The position numbers and the translations under genes are program-made. 64,000 nucleotides of DNA from Panorpa germanica (taxonomy: Eukaryota > Arthropoda > Insecta > Mecoptera > Panorpidae), in the NCBI GenBank assembly GCA_963678705.1, contig OY783203.1, positions 6,014,001-6,078,000 on the forward strand. The letters run 5' to 3'. Of this stretch, positions 2,108 through 64,000 are shown piece by piece. Numbering within the stretch: the stretch's first letter is position 1; each line of letters opens with the position of its first letter. Below the pieces are notes generated by a model that had not been told where the DNA came from, searched no databases, and saw only the letters and a list, made by a program, of their open reading frames with translations.

Positions 2108-2361
2108 CCCAGTAAACAATTTGGTGAAGTGCCCTATTTTGTGACGTTTCTATCACTATTTCACTTCAATTATAGTTGGCATCAACTTTATCTTCATTTG
2201 TATTCCGACAGGTGGAGTAATTTCGCCATTTATAGCCGACAAAGTAGACATTTTATATGAAAAAATGTGAGAAACTGAACTATAAATGAACTTTTTTATG
2301 ACAAAAAAATCATGTCGCATCTTCAATATGATGTCAAAGTGACTCCAAAATATTTACTGGG
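2108..2361 (-). mobile_element. 254-bp MITE with CCCAGTAAACA termini (copy A)
   Basis: A non-autonomous element bounded by terminal inverted repeats beginning CCCAGTAAACAATTTGG on one end and ending in the complement TTTACTGGG. It is the reverse complement of copies at 26770-27023 and 57207-57460, and all three have the same length. No transposase is encoded; the 65-aa frame is incidental. No target-site duplication is obvious, so the superfamily is left open. Confidence 0.8.
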
Positions 2362-26328: not shown

Positions 26329-27243
26329 CAGAGTCGGCCCGAAATAATGCGGAGCCCGATGCAAAGTTGATTTGGGTGCATAAAAATTATAGTTTATTAC
26401 ATTTAGCTATTTAATACATTGGGAAAATTATTATTATAATTATAATATAAACTGTAATTTGATACGTAAAACCCAAGAAACTCATTCTCTAAAGAATTGT
26501 TCTTAAACATTTTTTTCTTTGGGGTAACCCATTTTTGTAAAATAATTATTAAAATATCGGCAAAAAATGTTTCAGTTAACGTAAAGTAATTTCGATTTTC
26601 CCCAATTTGTAAACATTTTTAACATAACTTAAATATTAACATAAAATATTTATGACCAAAAATTCCGCTAATTGGTAAGTGCTAATTCAGTAAAGTAGCG
26701 TACCTTAGACGGGCCCCATATCAAAATATGTTGGGGGGCCTAAATGAAGGGTAAAGATTGTTCACAAAACCCAGTAAACATTTTGGAGTCACTTTGACAT
26801 CATATTGAAGATGCGTCATGATTTTTTTGTCATAAAAGAGTTCATTTATAGTTCAGTTTCTCACATTTTTTCATATAAAATGTCTACTTTATCGGCTACA
26901 GATGGCGAAATTACTCCACCTGTCGGAATACAAATGAAGATAAAGTTGATGCGAACTATAATTGAAGTGAAATAGTGATAGAAACGTCACTAAATAGGGC
27001 ACTTCACCAAATTGTTTACTGGGTAGGAACAAAAACGCTTGCATTGAATTAAAATAATTATATATTGATTATACGTTATTACTTACAATTAATACTCCTA
27101 ATTACTAAGCTAAGTACAGCCTGAGAGTTTAAGTGAGATTGTGGATAACATTTTTCGAAGTTTTGCTTACACAAGTTTGGGGCACTTGTAGCTCGGGGCC
27201 CCGTATCATTGATACGGCAGATACGGCGCTAGCTACGGCACTG
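26329..27243. mobile_element. Possible hAT-like remnant hosting a nested MITE
   Basis: Starts CAGAGTCGGCCCGAA and ends ACGGCACTG, so both ends give CAG(A/T)G(T/C)CG when read inwards, as in many hAT elements. Inside, GGGCCCCAT (26711-26719) and GGGGCCCCGT (27197-27206) are GC islands, and the 254-bp MITE copy B is inserted. No matching 8-bp duplication was found, so the ends may be wrong. Confidence 0.3.
26770..27023 (+). mobile_element. 254-bp MITE with CCCAGTAAACA termini (copy B)
   Basis: Begins CCCAGTAAACATTTTGGAG and ends CCAAATTGTTTACTGGG. It differs from copy C (57207-57460) at only about 7 positions and has no length difference, pointing to recent spread. No coding capacity. Confidence 0.88.
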
Positions 27244-30540: not shown

Positions 30541-30783
30541 ATTGTTTCAATGCAGAAGAGTTCTATCGCCGTAGACCTTCTACTATGTTGGCATTTTTTT
30601 AGTGTGTCGTGGTCTCATATATGTGAACTAAACTGCTGCCTGTCAAGTTTATAATTATGTATGTACAATCATAATTAACTTGATAACAATCAAACCCAGA
30701 AAATATAACTCTGGTTCGTGGATTGAACCCAAAGACACAGCAGTCAGCGTCACACACCAATGCTCTCGCCCACTGTGTCGTCT
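30541..30783 (-). repeat. tRNA-derived SINE, near full length
   Basis: Read on the minus strand: CGACACAGTGGGCGAGAGC head, then a body containing AAAATGCCAACATAGTAGAA, ending near TTGAAACAATTAG. The full head-plus-body order is preserved. The 62-aa plus-strand frame is its antisense. Confidence 0.85.
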
Positions 30784-31334
30784 AAGTTATATTTCAAATA
30801 TTTGTTTCTTTAAACACAAACTACACTTATTTATACTTTTCATATTTTTGTTTATAATAAATTTGTGAAATATATCATAATACAATAGAGAGAAGAGAGA
30901 TGCTGTGCCTTACTCCCAGAGCTTTTAATCTTCTCAGATATCATAGCCCTAGTGCTTGCCCTCGTGTCTAGTGTGCGGGATAATAATGGAGCGGACATAC
31001 TTTTCAAATGAAGAAAATAATTCAAATCAAGTTTTAATGATCCATGATTTTTTCTTTATTATAATTTGATTGGCATCTTAGGACAATTACAATACCATTA
31101 TAATAGTATTACTTTACATTAAATTAATTTACAGATTGTGTGAATTACGAAGTTAGCGAAGAAAAAAACCAACTGAGAACCAAACCATTTTTAAAAACCA
31201 TTAATGAGACCATCTTCTCCATAGAGTATTAATTTTAAAAATAATTAATTTTTTAAATTGTTGTAGAATATATTTTGGGTATTTCTTCTTCAAAATCATT
31301 AAAAAGAATTGTAATCAGAACCTTTGTTTTATTC

Positions 31335-31608
31335 ATTTAATTTATTTAACGTCTTATCCTTCTGACGGTTTCTTACAATAGTTGGCAATATTTATGGTGT
31401 CCTCATATATGTATATATGTCACGTATGTGATTCATATATGTGAACAACACCACTACCTAATAAAGTTTCTATAATTAGGTTAGTACATAATTAATTAAA
31501 CTTAAATAACAACTAAACCCAGAAAATACACCTCACTGGTCCGGGGATCGAACCCGGAGACACAGTAGTCCAATGTCAAGCATAAATACTCTCGGACACA
31601 GTGTCGTT
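31335..31608 (-). repeat. tRNA-derived SINE, full length with insertion
   Basis: Minus-strand head ACGACACTGTGTCCGAGAG, a good B box GGTTCGATCCCC, body and 3' GTTAAATAAATTAAATGAA. It has an extra ATATATG-rich segment near 31405-31445 relative to other copies. Confidence 0.85.
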
Positions 31609-32147: not shown

Positions 32148-32625
32148 GGGATTCAACGTTGTACACATTCCAAGTGTATGTGACATCACAATCCTTGTGT
32201 AAGGTTACCAACCTTATAGCTCATACATCTCTGCTATATGTATTTATATATCAAATATTATTTACAGCTATTTCAAGGAACAATCAAATTTCAATATTAT
32301 GTCTGCCTTAGCAGGGTTAAATAAAATAAAAATTTATTATTCTTTGATTTGGCTTGATTATTTGACTGCCAACAGCTACAAAACATTACCACAGCACTGA
32401 CTTACTCAACAAATAACTGAGGTTAAAATGCATTTCACGTCATACAAATATGGGCGACCATTTCTAGCGCTAAAACTACAATTCAAACTTTAAATTGCTA
32501 TATCTCCGTCAATATTTAGATATTTAATAAAATAGACACACCAATACACATTTATTACCATCAATTTCAATCAACAATTGAAAAATTGACTACTAAAAAA
32601 TGAGGACACAAGCCCATTGAGTAAA
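32148..32625 (+). repeat. Interspersed repeat R3, copy 1 (~470 bp)
   Basis: Matches 48766-49230 in the opposite orientation. Shared blocks include CAACGTTGTACACATTCCAA, AAGGTTACCAACCTTA, TTTCTAGCGCTAAAACTAC and GAGGACACAAGCCCATTGA. No protein frame is conserved. Truncated pieces of its last block appear near 47262 and 55207. Confidence 0.85.
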
Positions 32626-32936: not shown

Positions 32937-33010
32937 CTGTGCACCTGAAGATGTCTTTGAGAGGAAAGCCGAAAACTGGTGTTTTAAGTAGTTGGTTATT
33001 AAAGTAAATG
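32937..33010 (+). repeat. Retroelement 3'-end-like motif (CTGAAGATG...CGAAAACTGG)
   Basis: CACCTGAAGATG, a short imperfect stem, then GCCGAAAACTGGTG and TTATTAAAGTAA. A related arrangement occurs on the minus strand at 41626-41657, and CCGAAAACTGG recurs at 61235. Such CTGAnGA...GAAA cores recall hammerhead-type motifs in some retroelements, but the fold here is imperfect. Confidence 0.3.
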
Positions 33011-37200: not shown

Positions 37201-37440
37201 ATTTGTTTATTTGGTTTCAGATAGTAGTTATAATATCGATGACCTCATACTATGTTGACAGTTTTTGTAGTGGCAAGGCCTCATATATATGAGTCCTGAC
37301 ACCGCTGCCTAATAAGTTTATGATATTGCATATAATAAATTTAAATAAATAGCAAATCAAGTTAGACTGTTGCAGGAATCGAACCCGAAGACACAGCATT
37401 TTGATATCAACGTCTCAGCGCCCTCATCCACTGTGCCCTA
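37201..37440 (-). repeat. tRNA-derived SINE, near full length
   Basis: Minus-strand head AGGGCACAGTGGATGAGGGC and B-box region GGGTTCGATTCC. The body contains GCCACTACAAAAACTGTCAA. It is older and more diverged than the 60823 copy. Confidence 0.75.
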
Positions 37441-48487: not shown

Positions 48488-48734
48488 GTTTATTTAGATG
48501 CTGAGTTCTATTAAAGACGACCTTCTACTATGTTGGCAGTTTTCATAATGCCATGTTTGTATGTGTAAGTACATTGTTTGCCTCATGAAATAACTTTCCA
48601 TTATTTTGCAGGCACATTATCAATTTAACTTTCAAATCAATCAAACTTAGAAAATAAAGATATGGTCCGGGGATCGAACCCGAAGACGCAACAGTCTCGT
48701 GCCAAGATAAATCCTCTCGGCTACTGTGTCGTCC
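48488..48734 (-). repeat. tRNA-derived SINE, full length
   Basis: Minus-strand head GACGACACAGTAGCCGAGAG, B box GGTTCGATCCCC, body, and GACTCAGCATC-like 3' region. It lies head-to-head against R3 copy 2 with only ~30 bp between. Confidence 0.85.
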
Positions 48735-48765: not shown

Positions 48766-49230
48766 GAATGGGCTTGTGTCCTCATTTTTTAGTGATCGAT
48801 TTTTTAATTGTTCATTGAAATTGATGTTAATAAATGTGTATTAGCGTGTCTATTTTATTAAATATCTAAATATTGACGGAGATATAGCAATTAAAAGTTT
48901 GAATTGTAGTTTTAGCGCTAGAAATGGTCGGCCATATTTGTATGACGTGAAATGCATTTTAACGTCAGTTATTTGTTGAGTAGGTCAGTACTGTGCTAAT
49001 GTTCTGTAGCTGTTGGTAGTCAAATAATAAAGTCAAATCAAAGAATAATAAGTTTTTATTTTATTTAACCCTGCTAAGGCAGGCATAATATTGAAACTTG
49101 ATTGTTCTTTGAAATAGCTGTAAATAATATTTGATATTTTGATACATAAATACATTTATGAGCTGTAAGGTTGGTAACCTTACACAAGGATTGTGATGTC
49201 ATATGCACTTGGAATGTGTACAACGTTGAA
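48766..49230 (-). repeat. Interspersed repeat R3, copy 2
   Basis: Reverse-complement partner of 32148-32625. It is contiguous at 49233 with a piece matching 18150-18200, so a longer composite element is possible. Confidence 0.85.
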
Positions 49231-49439: not shown

Positions 49440-50150
49440 TTATACATATGAATGTTTTGTGTTATAACCAGAGTTATATAAGGGAAATAAATTTTATATT
49501 TGTGCATTGGTGTGTGTGTGTGTAGTTTCATTGATGGTGAGTAATATTTATGGCAATTACTGTACACTATAATGCAGTACATCATCAGTGGTCGGCGTTG
49601 GAGGGAAGGAGTCTGCACTCCTCCACTCTTCCACTCCTCCAGTCCTCTAGTACACCAGTACACCAAACACCCTGCATAGGTTATGGGATAAAATATTATT
49701 TCACCTCAGGTCCGAACTTACATCGAATAACTGGTACCACCATATACATACGAATACTACCCCATACACACTTACATTGTATGTATACTCATATGTATAT
49801 AATACAGTACAAAATACATAGTTAAAACCGAATATAAATTAAACAGCTAACACGTCAATGAAATAACATTATTTATAACATTGTTGAAAGTTATGTGATT
49901 GTAAAAGTTCAGAAAAGATCAAATTTCAATGACATATTGGAGTTCTGTTTTTATTTTTTTATTGTAATTTATTGATGCGAGCTTTCAAGCACGAATGTAT
50001 ATCGATATAACTCGGAATATCGATATTTGTTATTCGATTATTATTTATATATTAATTGTGTATGCCTTTCGGCTTTACAATCTACAGTATTATATTTCTA
50101 ATACATTTCATTCCTATATACATTCCAAACTTAAAACTAAACTTAAAATA
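49440..50150. other. Intergenic stretch with CT-rich patch
   Basis: 49600-49670 holds repeated ACTCCTCCA-type words; a (GT)n tract lies at 49506-49521. Overlapping frames on both strands (49436-49825) show no domain. ATCGATAT occurs twice at ~49999 and ~50021. Confidence 0.45.
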
Positions 50151-50159
50151 AACTTAAAA

Positions 50160-50760
50160 TCTTCTCGACTTTTACTACTTCCAAAAGTGCTTTCTGCTTC
50201 TTCTTCTTTTGACCCTCTCTATTATTCTCCACCAGATTATTTATTCTCCTGTTTTTCCTTTTCTTCTTACTATTTCCGCCATCCACCTCTTTCCTTCACT
50301 GCCTCCCTTTAATAGCTGGCCAATATTCCTTTCGCTTGCTACTTTTTCCTTACACTCAAACTTAATGTGCTCCAGTGTTTCGTCCTCCGCTCCACACATT
50401 CTACACTTTCTTTCCTCACTCTTTTCCCAGTATCTGTTTCCTTTTTCCTCATTTCCCAATCTAAACCTTGCTGTTCTTCTTATGTGTTTTATGTCTTTTT
50501 CTATAAGGTACTGAGGCACATTATTTTCCCATAACCTCTTATATCTTTTATTGTAGTTACTTTTTTCTATTTTTCCCATTCTCTCCTGCTGTTGTGTCTC
50601 CTTATCCCTTCTCCTTAGCTCCTCTGCCACACTTGCGCCACCTTCTCTTCTCCTCTCTGCCTCCTCGATCGCCATTCCATTCCTTTCAAAGTATTCTTTT
50701 CTCTTTTTTGGACCTCCTTTCCCCCCATTCTTTATGTAATCCTCTCTTATTTTCTTTAAG
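50160..50760 (-). pseudogene. LINE ORF2 C-terminal region, best-preserved copy
   Basis: An intact 144-codon minus-strand frame (50241-50675) encodes a charged helical start (EEAERRREGG..., RRRDKETQQQERMGKIEKSN), then RRTARFRLGNEEKGNRYW, the zinc-binding CRMCGAEDETLEHIKFEC and a basic end. This is the C-terminal end of a non-LTR retrotransposon ORF2; the reverse transcriptase domain should lie upstream (towards 50800 and beyond) but is absent, so the copy is 5'-truncated as is usual for LINEs. Reading stays open, so it is younger than the copies at 45700 and 58210. The start codon choice is arbitrary. The clade cannot be fixed without the RT domain. Confidence 0.7.
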
Positions 50761-50799
50761 ATTTTGCTTTTGTTATTCGATTATTAATTATTAAAAATG

Positions 50800-57206: not shown

Positions 57207-57460
57207 CCCATTAAACATTTTGGAGTCACTTTGACATCATATTGAAGATGCGTCATGATTCTTTTGTCATGAAAGAGTTCATTTATAGTTCAGTTTCTCA
57301 CATTTTTTCATATAAAATGTCTACTTTGTCGGTTACAAATGGCGAAATTACTCCACCTGTCGGAATACAAATGAAGATAAAGTTGATGCAAACTATAATT
57401 GAAGTGAAATAGTGATAGAAACGTCACTAAATAGGGCACTTCACCAAATTGTTTACTGGG
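57207..57460 (+). mobile_element. 254-bp MITE (copy C)
   Basis: One terminal base change (CCCATTAAACA) but otherwise a close match to copy B across its full length, ending TTGTTTACTGGG. Confidence 0.88.
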
Positions 57461-57469
57461 TTCTCATAT

Positions 57470-58190
57470 TTTCTTTTTGCGGTGCTTGCTAGATTTTTTT
57501 TATATTGTATACATATATTGTTTCTAATGTAATTTATTTTATCCTTTAAGATATATTGAAATACTTTTATAGAAATAGAGATAACGTTAATTAACAAAGA
57601 GTAAATACTTAATTTAGGTATTTTTAGTTACTTAAAAAGCAATATATTTTTAAAAAGCCACAACTTACGATACGTACGATATACTAGTAGTTAAAATCCA
57701 GCGAAACAAAACCAATACAATTGTAAAAGATAAACCCTTAGCAGTTAAGACACTCTAAAACACTGCACAAATCGTATGCATTCATATATGTAACTGTATA
57801 GTACATATAGAGATGTAAAAATGTAGATTTACGAACATTCACTGAGCAAATGCTAAATCTATTATTCTCTATATGCCTAGATAGTAAAAAGATCGCATTG
57901 CAGAAAGGTTTTAGAAACCATTTTCAGAGTTTTTATTCTTTAACTATTTAAATTATTACGATTTGTTTCTAGATTCAGTGACGTCACTTTAACGTTAATG
58001 GCATCACTGTTAATCACCACTCTTTATAAAAATTTCGTAATAATTACATCCTAATCGATATGACATCCATAAATTACGTTACACAAAATTATGGTTTGTT
58101 AAACTTGACTCCAAAATTTCACACATTAATCCTAATATGTTGTACATTAATATAAATTTTTTTTTTTTTAAATATATTAAAACCTGTCAA
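57470..58190. other. AT-rich stretch with R5 copy
   Basis: ATCCATAAATTACGTTACAC at 58067-58086 and a palindromic AGTGACGTCACTT at 57969-57981. No gene seen. Confidence 0.45.
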
Positions 58191-58209
58191 CCTAACCCAA
58201 ACGTGCCCC

Positions 58210-58335
58210 GTAACTAGTGCAGGTGAAGCGTTCCTTCTCACTAACAATCATAAAGTCGCATTCTCCATTATCTGCTCCAACACCTCTTTTTTTCGCTTAC
58301 AAATTCTGCAGAGCCTCCTCTCCATTTCTTCTCAA
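58210..58335 (-). pseudogene. LINE ORF2 C-terminal remnant, copy 3
   Basis: Minus-strand frame RRLCRICKRKKEVLEQIMEN followed by ATL and a stop matches the CxxC...LE(H)I pattern of the copies at 45700 and 50160, with the His replaced by Gln. It is a short, old fragment. Confidence 0.4.
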
Positions 58336-58833
58336 CACCTTTCACTCTTCTCTTCATTTCCTATTTTATATATCTCCAATTATTTATTTATAAGTAGTAT
58401 ATTACACGGCGTTTAATCACTTTTACATTATCACTATCACAATTAAAAACAAACACTTCAAACTAAAACACGATCATACACAACTTCTACTGAATTTTCA
58501 AAATATCAACATGTGTACTTAACGATTTATATTTTGGTTTAACACAACCAAATATTTTTTTAAAAATTCAAAAATCAAACTTATTCTAAAAAAATGCAAC
58601 AAGTGTCAAACATGCACATATATTTTCATCCCATCACCAAAAGAGCAGTAGTTTCCAAACTGTGGGAGATGGCACATAAGGTGCTCGGGAATATCGATAT
58701 CAATATACATAATCCCTACCTAAAACCTATATTTAACTAAAAACCCGCATAAAAAAAGAGGGTAAGATATTGGGGAGGACAGTACTACTTTTATTTAAGT
58801 TTGGAAACCACTGGAATATTAAAAAACACTCAC

Positions 58834-58872
58834 CATCGCTCATTGTCACTGCTTTGGAAACCATGAAGTGAG
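58834..58872 (-). CDS. Candidate exon C with possible start codon
   Basis: A 39-nt block bounded by TTAATTACAG (acceptor) and GATG|GTGAGT (strong donor). One frame is open and reads HFMVSKAVTMSDG, so an ATG here (58865-58863 or 58844-58842) could start a protein whose later exons lie at lower coordinates or have not been found. The exon-like blocks upstream have stops in most frames, which fits 5' UTR. Its short length keeps confidence moderate. Confidence 0.35.
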
Positions 58873-58951
58873 CTGTAATTAAAAAAAGTTGATTAGAAAA
58901 AAAAATAAACAAATTCGAATATATGTAGTACACATATCAATTGACAATTAC

Positions 58952-59027
58952 CTATTTTATAATCTCCTGGTGCAAGATGGTTCCTACCGCTAAAGATGAA
59001 CTGCTATAACTGAAAGCTGAAAGAAAT
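58952..59027 (-). other. Candidate exon D (noncoding)
   Basis: 76 nt between TTGTTGCAG and AAATAG|GTAATT. GC content is higher than flanks. The intron to exon C would be 79 nt, a typical short insect intron. Every frame contains a stop or ends in one. Confidence 0.33.
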
Positions 59028-59104
59028 CTGCAACAATAGAAATAATTTGTTTATAAAAATGTTTACCAACTTATGTATTAATTAAAAAAAAATGTTTAGC
59101 ATAC

Positions 59105-59175
59105 TTTATAATTATTAACAAAAATCGTTTTCATAAATCAGGTGAGCAGGCTGGTACGATCGTCTTGCAGTTCAT
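59105..59175 (-). other. Candidate exon E (noncoding)
   Basis: Begins after TGTTGTTACAG with ATGAACTGCAAGACGATCG. The donor is uncertain: GTATGC at 59104 gives a 77-nt intron to exon D; GTACCA further upstream is weaker. Confidence 0.25.
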
Positions 59176-59259
59176 CTGTAACAACAGAAAAGCATTGGTC
59201 AGAAAATAATTATCAATAACAAATAATAATATAATATCGACACTGAAATCTTGAATTAC

Positions 59260-59330
59260 CTATCTATTGGAAGTCCAGCACACGAATGCTTCTAGCATCT
59301 GCTTCCCCATTTCACTAACTTTTTTAAAAA
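59260..59330 (-). other. Candidate exon F (noncoding)
   Basis: Contains GGGGAAGCAGATGCTAGAAG and ends at GATAG|GTAATTC. The acceptor could be TTAAAATCAG (exon from 59330) or a later AG at 59319. The intron to exon E is 84 nt. Confidence 0.25.
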
Positions 59331-59748
59331 CTGATTTTAAACACTGCTACATTCAATTTTTATTTAAAACAGTTTTGTCCAATGTTTAATAAAGCTTTCA
59401 CTTTAGTTTAAAATACACAGAAACTAAATTTAATTTGTTTAGATTGATTAATAAAAAAAAATTATTTATAAATTTTATTTATCATAAATTATTTTCAAAT
59501 CAATAAATATTAAACGATTAGTAGCTTATCGCGCACGAAGCTATGACGCGAACGAAAACTGTAAGGAAAAAATGCATGCACACATTTCAAATATATATAA
59601 GTAATCCATTTAAAATTATATTTCCTAAGTTTGTCCTTTTATAACAATTTATAAAATGTTTTATTAAAATTAAACAAAATTAATCTTAAATGGATTAGGA
59701 GACACTTGTTGCAACACCATCACCAATTAATATTTAAAAAGAACTTAC

Positions 59749-59834
59749 GATCTGAACTCAGCTATTAATCATGCAGCAAAAGGATGCCATCGCAGCACAG
59801 AAGTGACCTTACTTGTAGCAGTCTTGTCGATATT
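59749..59834 (-). other. Candidate exon G (noncoding)
   Basis: 86 nt with a clear acceptor (T-rich tract then TTCTTATAG) and the best donor in the series (CAGATC|GTAAGTT). Stops occur in all frames, so UTR or noncoding RNA. Confidence 0.35.
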
Positions 59835-60385
59835 CTATAAGAATTCAAAAAAAAATATTTCAATTGAAAAAAATCAAAATATATTATTTGGAAAGATTTA
59901 AAATTGATTGTAAACGATAATTTTAAAATATGGAGATAAGAAAATTATAAAATATTAATTTAGTTATTGTAAATTATATTAAAAATACCTCAATACTATT
60001 AGAAAAATATTAAAATGTCAAAATATTTACAAGAAACAAGTACTACTTCTCATCAGCGATGATAAATTAACCTTAAAATATGTTCTACTATTTACTGAAG
60101 TATGTGGGCTATAATATTATTGCAAGAAATAAAATAAGATTAATAACTAAGTTGATAAGTTAAATAAAAATAATTATTATAAATGAAAACTAAGAATAAC
60201 AAAGATAGTTAATAAATAAACAATAGAAAATAATTACAATATCCGCGTCCCATTGTTTTCCGAGCCAGAATCAAAACACTGTACGTGGAGACACGATAAC
60301 AAGAAACACTTTCACCTTCTTATAATCTAAATTACATATCGGTATATTTTAATGATTTTACCACGTTGCACAACAAATTAAATAC

Positions 60386-60500
60386 CTGCAAAATATTATA
60401 GATATTACAGTCACCCACTTTGACAGTTGTCAAAAAGTTTAGTATTGCCCTATGTTCAATTTATTTTGAAGTGTGGTCAGTAAATGTATTGCCATGTGTG
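60386..60500 (-). promoter_or_regulatory. Candidate first exon / promoter of the spliced unit
   Basis: A donor TTTTGCAG|GTATTTAA at 60385 follows a block containing TTTGACAACTGTCAAA, an inverted repeat. The 5' boundary is arbitrary. If the exon series is real, transcription would start here or above. Confidence 0.25.
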
Positions 60501-60628
60501 TTTGAGCGATTCAGCGATTCATGCTACAATGAATAAATACATACATTTTAAAATATCTAAGAAAAATTAAATTTAAAATTTAATGTTTTAAATGTAATAT
60601 GTATTTGCAATATTAAAAAACCTAATAT

Positions 60629-60712
60629 TGAGGCCACAACACTATAGAAACTGCCAACATAGTAACTAGTCGTCGCAGATGATACAAGCCAGCATCGAAA
60701 TAAATATATCAC
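60629..60712 (+). repeat. SINE body fragment
   Basis: GAGGCCACAACACTATAGAAACTGCCAACATAGTA-type text and CAGCATCGAAATAAAT correspond to the 3' half of the main SINE; the head is absent. Confidence 0.7.
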
Positions 60713-60822
60713 AAAAAAATAATCGTCAAAGTAATATATATTAAGAAAAATCTAGAAACGTAATAAATTTAAATACATTCTCAGTGGTAGTTTTCATTTC
60801 AATTTTTAAATGTTAGATACAT

Positions 60823-61074
60823 TTTTTAAATTTATTTGACGTGGGTCTATTTCCGATGCTGAGTCCTATCATCGACGTCCTCTTATTATGTAGGCAGTTT
60901 TTGTGGTGTCGTGGCGCCATATATGTTACGGCACTGCTGCCTAATAAGTTTGATTATGTACGTACCTAATCAATTTAACAATGACATCCAAACACAGTAA
61001 ATATAGTTTTGGTCAGTGATCGAACCCAAAGACACAGCACTCAGTGTCAATGCTCTCGAACACAGTGTCGTCTA
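60823..61074 (-). repeat. tRNA-derived SINE, full-length reference copy
   Basis: On the minus strand: GACGACACTGTGTTCGAGAG head, GGTTCGATCACTGACC, body with GGCACCATGACACCACAAA-like text, GACTCAGCATCGGAAATAGA and an AAATAAATTTAAA end. About 250 bp, the complete order seen across the family. Confidence 0.88.
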
Positions 61075-61233
61075 GATATGTTCGGAAAAATCAAAATAAC
61101 ATAAATTTTAAAATGATGGGCTTATTTCAATAGTGAGGGTAATAAATATAAATTAGTGGTGAGAATTCAATAGTTTCGAGAGATTAATATTTCTTTCTAT
61201 GTATTTCATTCATTAAATTCCAGTGTCGTTATG

Positions 61234-62457
61234 CCCGAAAACTGGCGGCAAATGAAGCTGTATGTACCACTTATTGAAATAAAATTAATTCAATATTGGA
61301 GGCAATCCTATTAAATAATATTTTCTCCTTACCACTGTATTTTGTAACTCATTCAGAGATAAAAAAATTATAATCACAATATTTAAATTCTTTTGAATAA
61401 GACCAAAGTCTTTCGCGTTAGGTAGATATTCTTCTCGAAGGTGTTAACATTTGCTTCTTGTGCCATTTTTATTACAGTTACTTGATTTCAGTTTAAAACC
61501 CATCATCCTTCAAAAGAATCAAAACAAAGCATCTACATGGAGGTTTACTAGTATAACTATTAAAATAATTTCCTGCTCGGTTTGGCTAACTGTTTTCTAA
61601 AAGAAGAGTTGTACCACTATTGAAATAAGACTGTCAGATGTTCTTAATAATAATTGTAAATTCAAGAAAATAATTTTGCAATATTGTATGCTAAATAGTA
61701 TTTTTCATTTCAATTTTGTAATATGTTTCTATCTGTATTTCTACTTGAAAGAGGACATAAATAGAAATTAATAATACAACATATACACAAGGTAACAAAA
61801 ATGAAATGAAATTGTGAATGAATTATTTAATAATACATACATATTAACTGGCTGAACAAAATACATCTTCCAAACAATAACAGGTGTCTCCGTGTCTGCC
61901 CTGTGATTCCATACCTGCAGAATTAAGTCAACGTCGAGCGCAACGCTTAGGACTGTGTCAGTAAAATGCAACAAACAATTGTGCATGTCATGAATGGTTA
62001 TTATGCAGCTAAAACATAATAACACATGTACATCAAAGAGTATGTGTTTATGTTAACCAGAAAAAATAATGTACGTACTTACAATTTACGAATTAGGAGC
62101 CTGTAGTAACTAAAAAGATGATTGCAATATAGCTGAAAAGACAATATAAATCCAATCTGAATTACGCAGCTGAAGAAAATCAAAATGTCCGTCGCTTAAC
62201 ATTACACCTACTATGAATAAAATATTTTAGAGTTGTTCTAAAAAAAGGCACATCATAAATGTCAAACTTACAATTTAGACCATCGTCAACTGCACGTCAA
62301 AGTAGAATATACACCAGGTGTTGATTTGTAATAAACAAAGTTAATAAAAATGAATGCACATGTGTTAACAGCAGAAAATATTTTCACTGCGTAAAACAGG
62401 TTGAAACAAGTTTTCGTGTACTGAAGATAGACGTGAATATACTTGCGGAACCACAGT
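61234..62457 (-). repeat. Large palindrome, left arm (~1.2 kb)
   Basis: Reverse complement of 62791-64000 along its whole length, with roughly 85-90% identity by eye plus small indels. The outer end carries GCCCGAAAACTGGCGGCAAA; the inner end lies near 62457 (GACGTGAATATACTTGCG). An 85-codon minus frame (61768-62025) containing LQVWNHRADTETPVIV and KMYFVQPVNMYVLLNNSF is shared with the right arm. Differences between the two include both silent and replacement changes, so protein constraint is not shown. A CTGCAG|GTATGG donor-like site is kept in both arms. Confidence 0.85.
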
Positions 62458-62790
62458 ACACCGTACTCAAAAAGTTGTTTCCGCAAGTAGTAGGTTACAG
62501 TGTGAGATCTGCAACCAACCGATGCATTTTGACAGCCAGTATATGTTGGCGCGTACAGTACATTGCTAATGACAGTAGTATTAAACAATGGCTGCCTAAA
62601 CGATGCCAATGACATGTATCCACAAAAAAGAATTAATAAAATATCAAAGTGATTGATTTGTGCTTCAGATATTAGTTAAATATATTAAATTATTAATGTA
62701 TTAACAATGGCTAATTCGTTAATATTACACTCTAGTTAAAAATTATATATTTTTTAAGGTTAGTATTCATTCTATTAGTCATTGTTTTTC
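62458..62790. repeat. Palindrome spacer
   Basis: About 330 bp between the arms, unique within the window. It contains GCGCGTACAGTACATTGC and an AT-rich right half. No gene is evident; the 109-codon minus frame that starts here runs into the left arm. Confidence 0.7.
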
Positions 62791-64000
62791 GAGTATATTC
62801 ACGTCTATCTACAGTACTCGAAAACTTGTTTCCACCTGTTGTGTGCAGTGATAGTATTTTCTGTTGTTAACACATGTGTGTTTATTTTAATAACTTTGTT
62901 TATAACAAATCAACACCTGGTGTATCTTCTACTTTGACGTGCAGTTGACGATTGTCAAAATTGTAAGTTTGACATTTATGATGTGCCTTTTTTAAGAACA
63001 ACTCTAAAATATTTTATTTATAGTAGGTGTAATGTTAAGCGATGGACATTTTGATTTTCTGCAGCTGTATAATTCAGCCCTGGATTTAAATTGTCGTTTC
63101 AGCTACATAGCAATCACCTTTTCAATTACTACGGCCCCTAATTCGTAAATTGTATGTACGTACATTATTTTTTCTCGTAAACATAAACACATACCTTTTG
63201 CTGAATATGTGTTATTATGTTTTAGCTGCATAATAACCATTCATGACGTGGACAATCGTTTGTTTGCTGCTGCATTTTACTGACACAGTTCTAAGCGGTG
63301 CGTTTGACATTGACTTAACTCTGCAGGTATGGAATCACAGGGCAGACACGGAGACACCTGTTATTGTTTTGAAGATGTATTTTGTTCAACCAGTTAATAT
63401 GTATGTATTATTAAATAATTCATTCACAATTTCATTTCATTTTTGTTATCTTTGGTATATTTTGTATTATTAATTTCTATTTATGTCATCTTTGACGTAG
63501 AAATAAAGATACAAACATATTACAAAATTGAAATGAATTTGAAATATTTACAATATTGCAAAATTATTTTATTGAAGTTGCAATTATTTTTAAGAATATC
63601 TGACAGTCTTATTTCAATAGTGGCACAATTCTACTTTTAAAAAATAGTTAGACAAACCGAGCAGGAAATTATTTTAATTGTTATACTAGTAAAGCTCCAT
63701 GTAGATGCTTTGTTTTGATTCTTTTGAAGGATGATGGGTTTTAAACTGAAATCAAGTAACTCTAATGAAAATAGCACAAGAATCAAATGTTGACACCTCT
63801 GACACGAATATCTACCTAACGACAAAGACTTTGGTTTTATTTAAATGAATTTACATATTGTGATTATGATTTTTTATCCCTGAAAGAGTTACAAAATGCA
63901 GTGGTAAGGAGGAAATAATATTTAATAGGATTGCCTCCAATATTGAATTAATTTTATTTCAATAATTGGTACAGCTTTATTTGCTCCCAGTTATTGGGCA
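62791..64000 (+). repeat. Large palindrome, right arm, running off the window
   Basis: Inverted copy of 61234-62457. The last bases (CTCCCAGTTATTGGGCA) match the outer end of the left arm, so the true arm end lies at or just beyond 64000. A 76-codon plus frame (63243-63473) parallels the left-arm frame. Confidence 0.85.

Follow-up and report, generated by a model that had tools for sequence, protein, structure and literature searches.

The described systems closest to the locus reported here are conversion palindromes of sex chromosomes, foldback transposons, hairpin RNA (hpRNA) loci and roX-type noncoding RNAs. The locus lies at the end of a 64,000-nucleotide stretch of Panorpa germanica DNA (the window; C21:6014001-6078000 of a 464-Mb assembly, with other loci labeled by contig and Mb). 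Its noncoding character, its conserved stems and the small hairpin found in tandem in some family copies recall roX-type long noncoding RNAs, whereas the number of copies (about 100) and an excess on contig C21 that is only weak, about two-fold, set it apart. Like the sex-chromosome palindromes (PMC8981503, PMC3403216), it has inverted arms with gene-like units, and two related palindromes (C19:12.49 and C21:3.86) carry conversion-like sites; unlike them, the arms measure a few kilobases and are noncoding, several contigs are involved, and the pair in the window shows no conversion. Long inverted repeats, multiple copies and no coding capacity seen are shared with the Galileo and Foldback elements of Drosophila (PMC2775673), but the present family has splice-like blocks, neither a target-site duplication nor a common terminus was seen in it, and the palindrome is not the usual form among the family loci read. 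The Nmy/Tmy hpRNAs and the Dox family of D. simulans (PMC10292708) are likewise multicopy, with some copies arranged as inverted repeats; here, however, the copies are head to head, have outward-directed 5' ends and are spread over many contigs.

Structure of the palindrome

The original prediction had placed a large imperfect palindrome at the end of the window, and alignment and BLASTN bear this out, with its start, orientation, arm length and spacer correct to within a few bases. The inner arms (61232-62443 and 62792-64000) are 89.5% identical (BLASTN; E = 0), their local alignment with flanks comprising 1096 identities, 101 mismatches and 27 gap positions over 1224 columns, and they enclose a spacer of 348 bp (62444-62791). 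The palindrome is present where it was predicted, but the window cuts it. Once C21:6078001-6092000 was added and the self-comparison was carried past 64000, the arms grew to 57942-62443 and 62792-68001, about 10 kb in total; contiguity was verified with overlapping sequence at three junctions, including the window end. The full arms align as three blocks (88.1, 85.8 and 88.1% identity) and, without gap columns, are 91.1% identical (3732/4098). Their divergence is uniform along the length, bins of more than 200 sites showing identities of 0.87 to 0.94. About 990 bp (65528-66517) occur in the right arm and are missing from the left one. Of these, 734 bp match a LINE-like piece at 50038-50770 with 99.3% identity and are found in one arm only, so the insertion probably took place after the palindrome had formed. 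The bases just outside 57942 and 68001 differ, and the arms in the window accordingly show no target-site duplication.

Two collinear inverted copies, evenly diverged and with one junction inside the unit, are what an inverted duplication leaves, and among the readings proposed originally this is the best supported one for the locus. As a rearrangement the palindrome is of an ordinary kind. Less ordinary is the dispersed noncoding family behind it, in which a 23-nucleotide word matches exactly at 73 of its 126 places and splice-like sites persist.

The outer ends had also been said to share text with position 32970. The word in question, CCGAAAACTGG at 32969, is a lone 11-mer. With up to 2 mismatches it occurs 10 times in the window, where shuffled sequence leads one to expect 8.3, and a BLASTN search of the window with 61234-64000 as the query (E ≤ 1e-3) returns the arms alone. 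The count and the search together rule out a common origin. Some tRNA-like text, identified by eye, lies just past the right end of the palindrome (L029, about 285-355).

Anatomy of the unit

The palindrome is a head-to-head inverted pair of a noncoding unit of about 4 kb or longer. Its parts are as follows.

57942..62443, minus strand: left arm, a 5'-truncated inverted copy of the unit, without exon 1
62444..62791, plus strand: spacer, 348 bp, containing the exon-1-like block of the right copy
62572..62758, plus strand: exon-1-like block, ending at donor-like AAG|GTTAGTA; aligned at 17 of 19 other loci
62792..64000, plus strand: right arm, part within the window; runs on to 68001 (C21:6082001)
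59749..59834, minus strand: exon-A-like block of the left copy, bounded by TTCTTATAG and GTAAGT
59701..59713, minus strand: left half of inverted repeat IR1, TGCAACAAGTGTC; pairs with an inverse 13-mer about 1.1 kb downstream
59522..59543, minus strand: short GC-rich hairpin, TAGCTTCGTGCGCGATAAGCTA; tandem repeats in several other copies
58952..59027, minus strand: exon-D-like block; its mean pairwise identity of 0.91 ranks it with the best-conserved parts of the family
58834..58872, minus strand: exon-E-like block (mean pairwise identity, 0.93)
58797..58813, minus strand: left half of a stem of at least 14 bp, CAGTGGTTTCCAAACTT
58646..58662, minus strand: right half of the same stem, CAGTTTGGAAACTACTG
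58595..58617, minus strand: family 23-mer, GTGCATGTTTGACACTTGTTGCA; includes the right half of IR1

The unit starts near the exon-1-like block, with its donor-like AG|GTTAGT, and continues with blocks bounded by acceptor-like and donor-like sites, including the 3' domain. The spacer block has the same direction as the homologue of the right arm in all 17 loci that hold it, and spacer block and right arm together are collinear with copies at other loci. At C10:5.57 there are two copies, each with its own spacer block, so that exon 1 is retained on both sides. Downstream of the 23-mer, sequence is common to some copies only, and no 5' boundary was found; the unit is therefore one without clear ends.

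Two inverted repeats recur within the unit. The left 13-mer of IR1 lies about 35 nucleotides after donor A, and its inverse, within the 23-mer, lies just before an acceptor-like T-run. Both halves are found in 23 of 24 copies (18 fully paired and 5 with one mismatch), the exception being C10:5.57, with a one-base deletion; a matched double change is seen at C10:6.71. Six copies were picked for a variant 23-mer, and in two of these six (C4:4126094 and C21:28325726), which come on top of the 24 and bring the copies looked at to 26, the left half was not found. Pairing counts are given for IR1 and the 14-bp stem; those for the GC-rich hairpin and IR2 were set aside, since some rows, such as W_L and W_R, had the wrong partner assigned. 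Pairing of IR1 in RNA is suggestive only. In the last segment, 22 of 24 copies pair fully along the 14-bp stem, whose ends resemble hAT termini, so that the stem may be an old MITE. RNAalifold draws a closing stem and other stems in the 3' domain, with weak covariation. The GC-rich hairpin unit is repeated about seven times in tandem, with a 75-bp period, at 31117.1-31117.6 kb of C21.

A dispersed family

The genome search for further copies of the arm, which the original prediction had proposed, revealed a dispersed family rather than a single-copy sequence. With 61234-64000 as the query, 82 matches were found at the 40 candidate places scored, and the 3' domain gave 175 candidates, of which all 40 scored matched. 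The family 23-mer has 126 matches in the 464-Mb genome with up to 3 mismatches (73 of them exact), against 1 for the reversed control; the exon-D 22-mer has 94, 16 of them exact, against 2 for its control. Copies occur on most large contigs, and the family has roughly on the order of 100 copies. Twenty loci, namely the window and 19 others, were compared, some of them later extended with flanks.

Contig C21 carries a weak, about two-fold excess of copies, both among exact 23-mer matches (16 of 73, 7.5 expected; P = 0.003) and among the 100 places listed of the 126 (19, 10.3 expected; P = 0.007). At 48 Mb C21 is the largest contig, yet it follows contigs of falling size (11 others compared), which suggests that it is a sex chromosome, X or Z. 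COX1-like pieces are scattered on C16, C1, C3, C5, C21 and others, and are probably nuclear copies of mitochondrial DNA.

Rfam returned no match in the window and one in 57900-64000, far below the cut-off (E = 0.84), and IMG/VR held no exact match to the 23-mer. No such family was named in the literature listings surveyed, which cover part of what is in print and are no proof of absence from it. The family may already be catalogued in Repbase or Dfam.

Noncoding character and conservation

No conserved reading frame runs across the units; short matches scatter over several frames, and no frame of at least 90 amino acids common to the 20 loci was seen by eye. A coding origin of the unit was ruled out on these grounds. 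A Pfam scan of ten longer frames, nine of them from the 20 loci or the window (about 30 of some 126 places were read), gave neither a convincing family nor a transposase inside the unit proper. The low-complexity matches that it gave at C21:31.1, in the tandem repeat within the exon-B region of that copy, are read as chance on a repeat.

Splice-like signals were scored with nine patterns written from the alignment itself, in 15 copies (13 from 12 other loci and the 2 of the window). Six patterns match all 15 copies, donor E matches 14, and donors C and D match 12 each; the counts for donor B and acceptor C are upper bounds, because the two patterns fit donor D and acceptor D as well. The family thereby combines conserved splice-like sites with the lack of a conserved frame, the combination looked for in spliced RNA genes. 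Mean pairwise identity reaches 0.91 for exon D, 0.93 for exon E and 0.95 for the final 51 bases, compared with 0.77 to 0.86 in introns B to D, 0.71 in exon A, 0.63 in the exon-B region, 0.79 in exon C and 0.57 just past the 23-mer. Only exons D and E and the end segment exceed the introns; exons A to C do not.

In five of eight copy pairs the exon-like core had diverged significantly less than the 5' region. The test is biased towards constraint, since the alignment itself served to choose the core and some copies enter more than one pair. The respective divergences are 2.6 and 7.8% for C21:4.95 and C21:6.88 (P = 0.0013), 4.8 and 25% for C21:8.57 and C9, 6.2 and 45% for C3:0.65 and C1, 6.6 and 17.7% for C9 and C3:26.0, and 0.4 and 7.8% for the two arms of C3:26.0. 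Two comparisons of C19:12.49 with C21:3.86, pairs that are only 0.4 to 2% diverged, showed no lower divergence of the core (P = 0.58 and 0.74). The 5' parts differ by 8 to 45% in six of the eight pairs. Against the other loci compared, C3:0.65 reaches at most 86 to 87% identity in the 3' domain and mostly 65 to 78% elsewhere, its core being kept. A genome search for a processed copy, with exon D joined to exon E, gave no hit.

The window pair served as an inner contrast and showed no sign of constraint (core 8.0%, 5' region 8.2%; P = 0.53) and no conversion tracts between its arms, the divergence being even. The 23-mer is exact in both copies. In the right copy the donor-E pattern is missing, and the T-run that follows the 23-mer is broken. 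The pair seems to have formed once by inverted duplication and to have decayed since.

Head-to-head pairs at other loci and possible gene conversion

Within the 4.5 to 19 kb read per locus, inverted pairs were found at 4 of the 20 loci, namely the window, C10:5.57, C3:26.0 and C21:47.75, a number that is a lower bound since flanks were short at many other loci. No clear inverted pair was seen at the remaining 16, many of them with incomplete flanks; they showed a single copy, two copies in the same direction or a fragment. A piece of a polyprenyl-synthase gene (L037, 105-452) adjoins the C3:26.0 pair. Among the 100 places listed, neighboring 23-mers less than 15 kb apart are divergent in 7 cases, same-direction in 5 and convergent in none; at less than 100 kb the numbers are 10, 5 and 1. 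The left copy starts at unit position 490 or so in the window and at an estimated 1700 to 1800 at C3:26.0 and C21:47.75, and these differing start points mean that duplication occurred on at least two separate occasions.

C19:12.49 and C21:3.86, two further divergent pairs that were read, are both palindromes. They are about 96% identical to each other across about 8.5 kb, so that nearly the whole structure is present on both chromosomes. AT microsatellites are close to three of the four outer ends, and inspection by eye showed no target-site duplication at either locus. The grouping of informative sites changes with distance from the center: beyond column 2400, 14 of 14 group the arms within a locus; at columns 300 to 1500, 49 of 49 group them across loci; and at columns 0 to 300 all 58 do so, in a stretch that is partly spacer, in which the arms are not homologous. 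The pattern is conversion-like, such as would be expected from arm-to-arm gene conversion after the palindrome was copied to a second chromosome. Arm divergence is about 1% at C19:12.49 (outside the inner 450 bp), 3 to 9% at C21:3.86, 5 to 9% at C3:26.0, 9% in the window, 15 to 28% at C10:5.57 and 24 to 32% at C21:47.75. Head-to-head palindromes of such varied divergence are natural replicates for the question of when gene conversion holds arms together.

Origin of the palindrome and nature of the family

We consider it most probable, at roughly 60%, that the palindrome arose long ago by inverted duplication of one noncoding unit, a member of a dispersed family that looks like spliced RNA genes spread as DNA. 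The copy on the plus strand (spacer and right arm) would have been duplicated from intron 1 to past its 3' domain, and the duplicate inverted about 100 bp upstream of the exon-1 block, giving the head-to-head pair. Template switching or fold-back repair could have been the route, to judge from the structure. The resemblance to RNA genes would lie in the central, outward-pointing 5' end, the short exon-like blocks with GT/AG edges and the 3' domain closed by the 13-bp inverted repeat. Transcription, splicing, a function as RNA and the choice of the original copy are points that we infer from sequence. Counting against RNA genes are the fairly conserved introns B to D together with exons A to C that do not rise above them, the exon-D word being exact in only 16 of 94 places, the failure to find a processed D-E copy, the unit's lack of clear ends, and a dispersed copy number, about 100, more usual for mobile elements.

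That copy number and the presence of copies on most large contigs would also suit a nonautonomous DNA transposon, in which the 3' domain and the 13-bp repeats would act in cis and be kept in active lineages, the palindromes would be head-to-head dimers, and the exon-like signals would come from a captured piece of gene. This possibility would not surprise us, although we lean against it. The 13-bp repeats stand on both sides in 23 of 26 copies, a nearly whole palindrome is found on both C19 and C21 with most outer ends near AT microsatellites, the 14-bp stem resembles hAT termini, and some 1.3 kb downstream of the C1:19.8 copy there is the C-terminal piece of a hAT transposase (L032, 2296-2622). 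However, conservation passes the left 13-mer into exon A, so that the 13-mers are not the ends of the unit; target-site duplications were seen neither at the window arms nor, by eye, at C19:12.49 and C21:3.86; the frames seen hold no transposase inside the unit, the hAT piece being outside it and at one locus only; and C3:0.65 has diverged strongly from the other loci, yet its core is kept. The original prediction had offered a foldback transposon or the long terminal inverted repeats of a larger element, and its multicopy part stands, since the family is dispersed. In a foldback or Galileo-like transposon the whole palindrome would be the mobile element. Long inverted arms around a short middle and the near-identity of the C19:12.49 and C21:3.86 palindromes fit this; but an inverted pair at only 4 of 20 loci, left copies truncated at differing points, and no target-site duplication, shared terminus or transposase seen in the units examined make it unlikely.

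A third proposal, a source of hairpin RNA, fared worse. A transcript across both arms would fold, and Dicer-2 siRNAs made from it would silence other family members. The putative first exon sits in the spacer and is directed away from the opposite arm, which means that a native transcript would not span the two arms; with both 5' ends central, transcription would run outward and yield same-sense transcripts and no hairpin. The arms are also about 9% diverged, and at about 70 to 75% identity outside the 3' domain few 21-nucleotide reads would match other copies. An hpRNA locus is thus very unlikely, while a read-through hairpin across both arms is possible. Assembly errors are known to arise at inverted repeats, but an artefact, already argued against in the original prediction from the divergence of the arms, can hardly account for a difference of about 9% outside gaps that is even along the length, for the LINE piece confined to one arm or for the comparable inverted pairs found elsewhere.

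The reading as an inverted duplication of a unit resembling RNA genes can be taken further. There would be about 100 RNA genes in which pairing of the 13-mers loops out exons B to E, favoring exon skipping or circular RNA; they would be kept up one by one and partly by conversion repair in head-to-head palindromes, while the window pair decays. This extended form is rather unlikely. The family as a whole would be either a large set of RNA genes or a mobile element, noncoding and under unexplained constraint.

Other repeats in and around the window

A 254-bp repeat occurs three times in the window (2108-2361, 26770-27024 and 57207-57461; 96 to 97% identity) and is probably a young, short mobile element. 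The LINE-like 3' piece at 50038-50770 is matched, at 99.3% identity, at C21:6079539-6080272. Pfam gave weak reverse-transcriptase zinc fingers in two LINE pieces, the match at C21:6079539-6080272 being below the cut-off. An inverted repeat pair of about 465 bp (92.5% identity) lies at 32152-32618 and 48767-49230. A dispersed repeat of about 200 bp, with identities of about 69 to 75%, was found at 30558-30784, 31433-31607, 37235-37398, 48503-48733 and 60861-61074, and each arm of the palindrome contains one copy of it.
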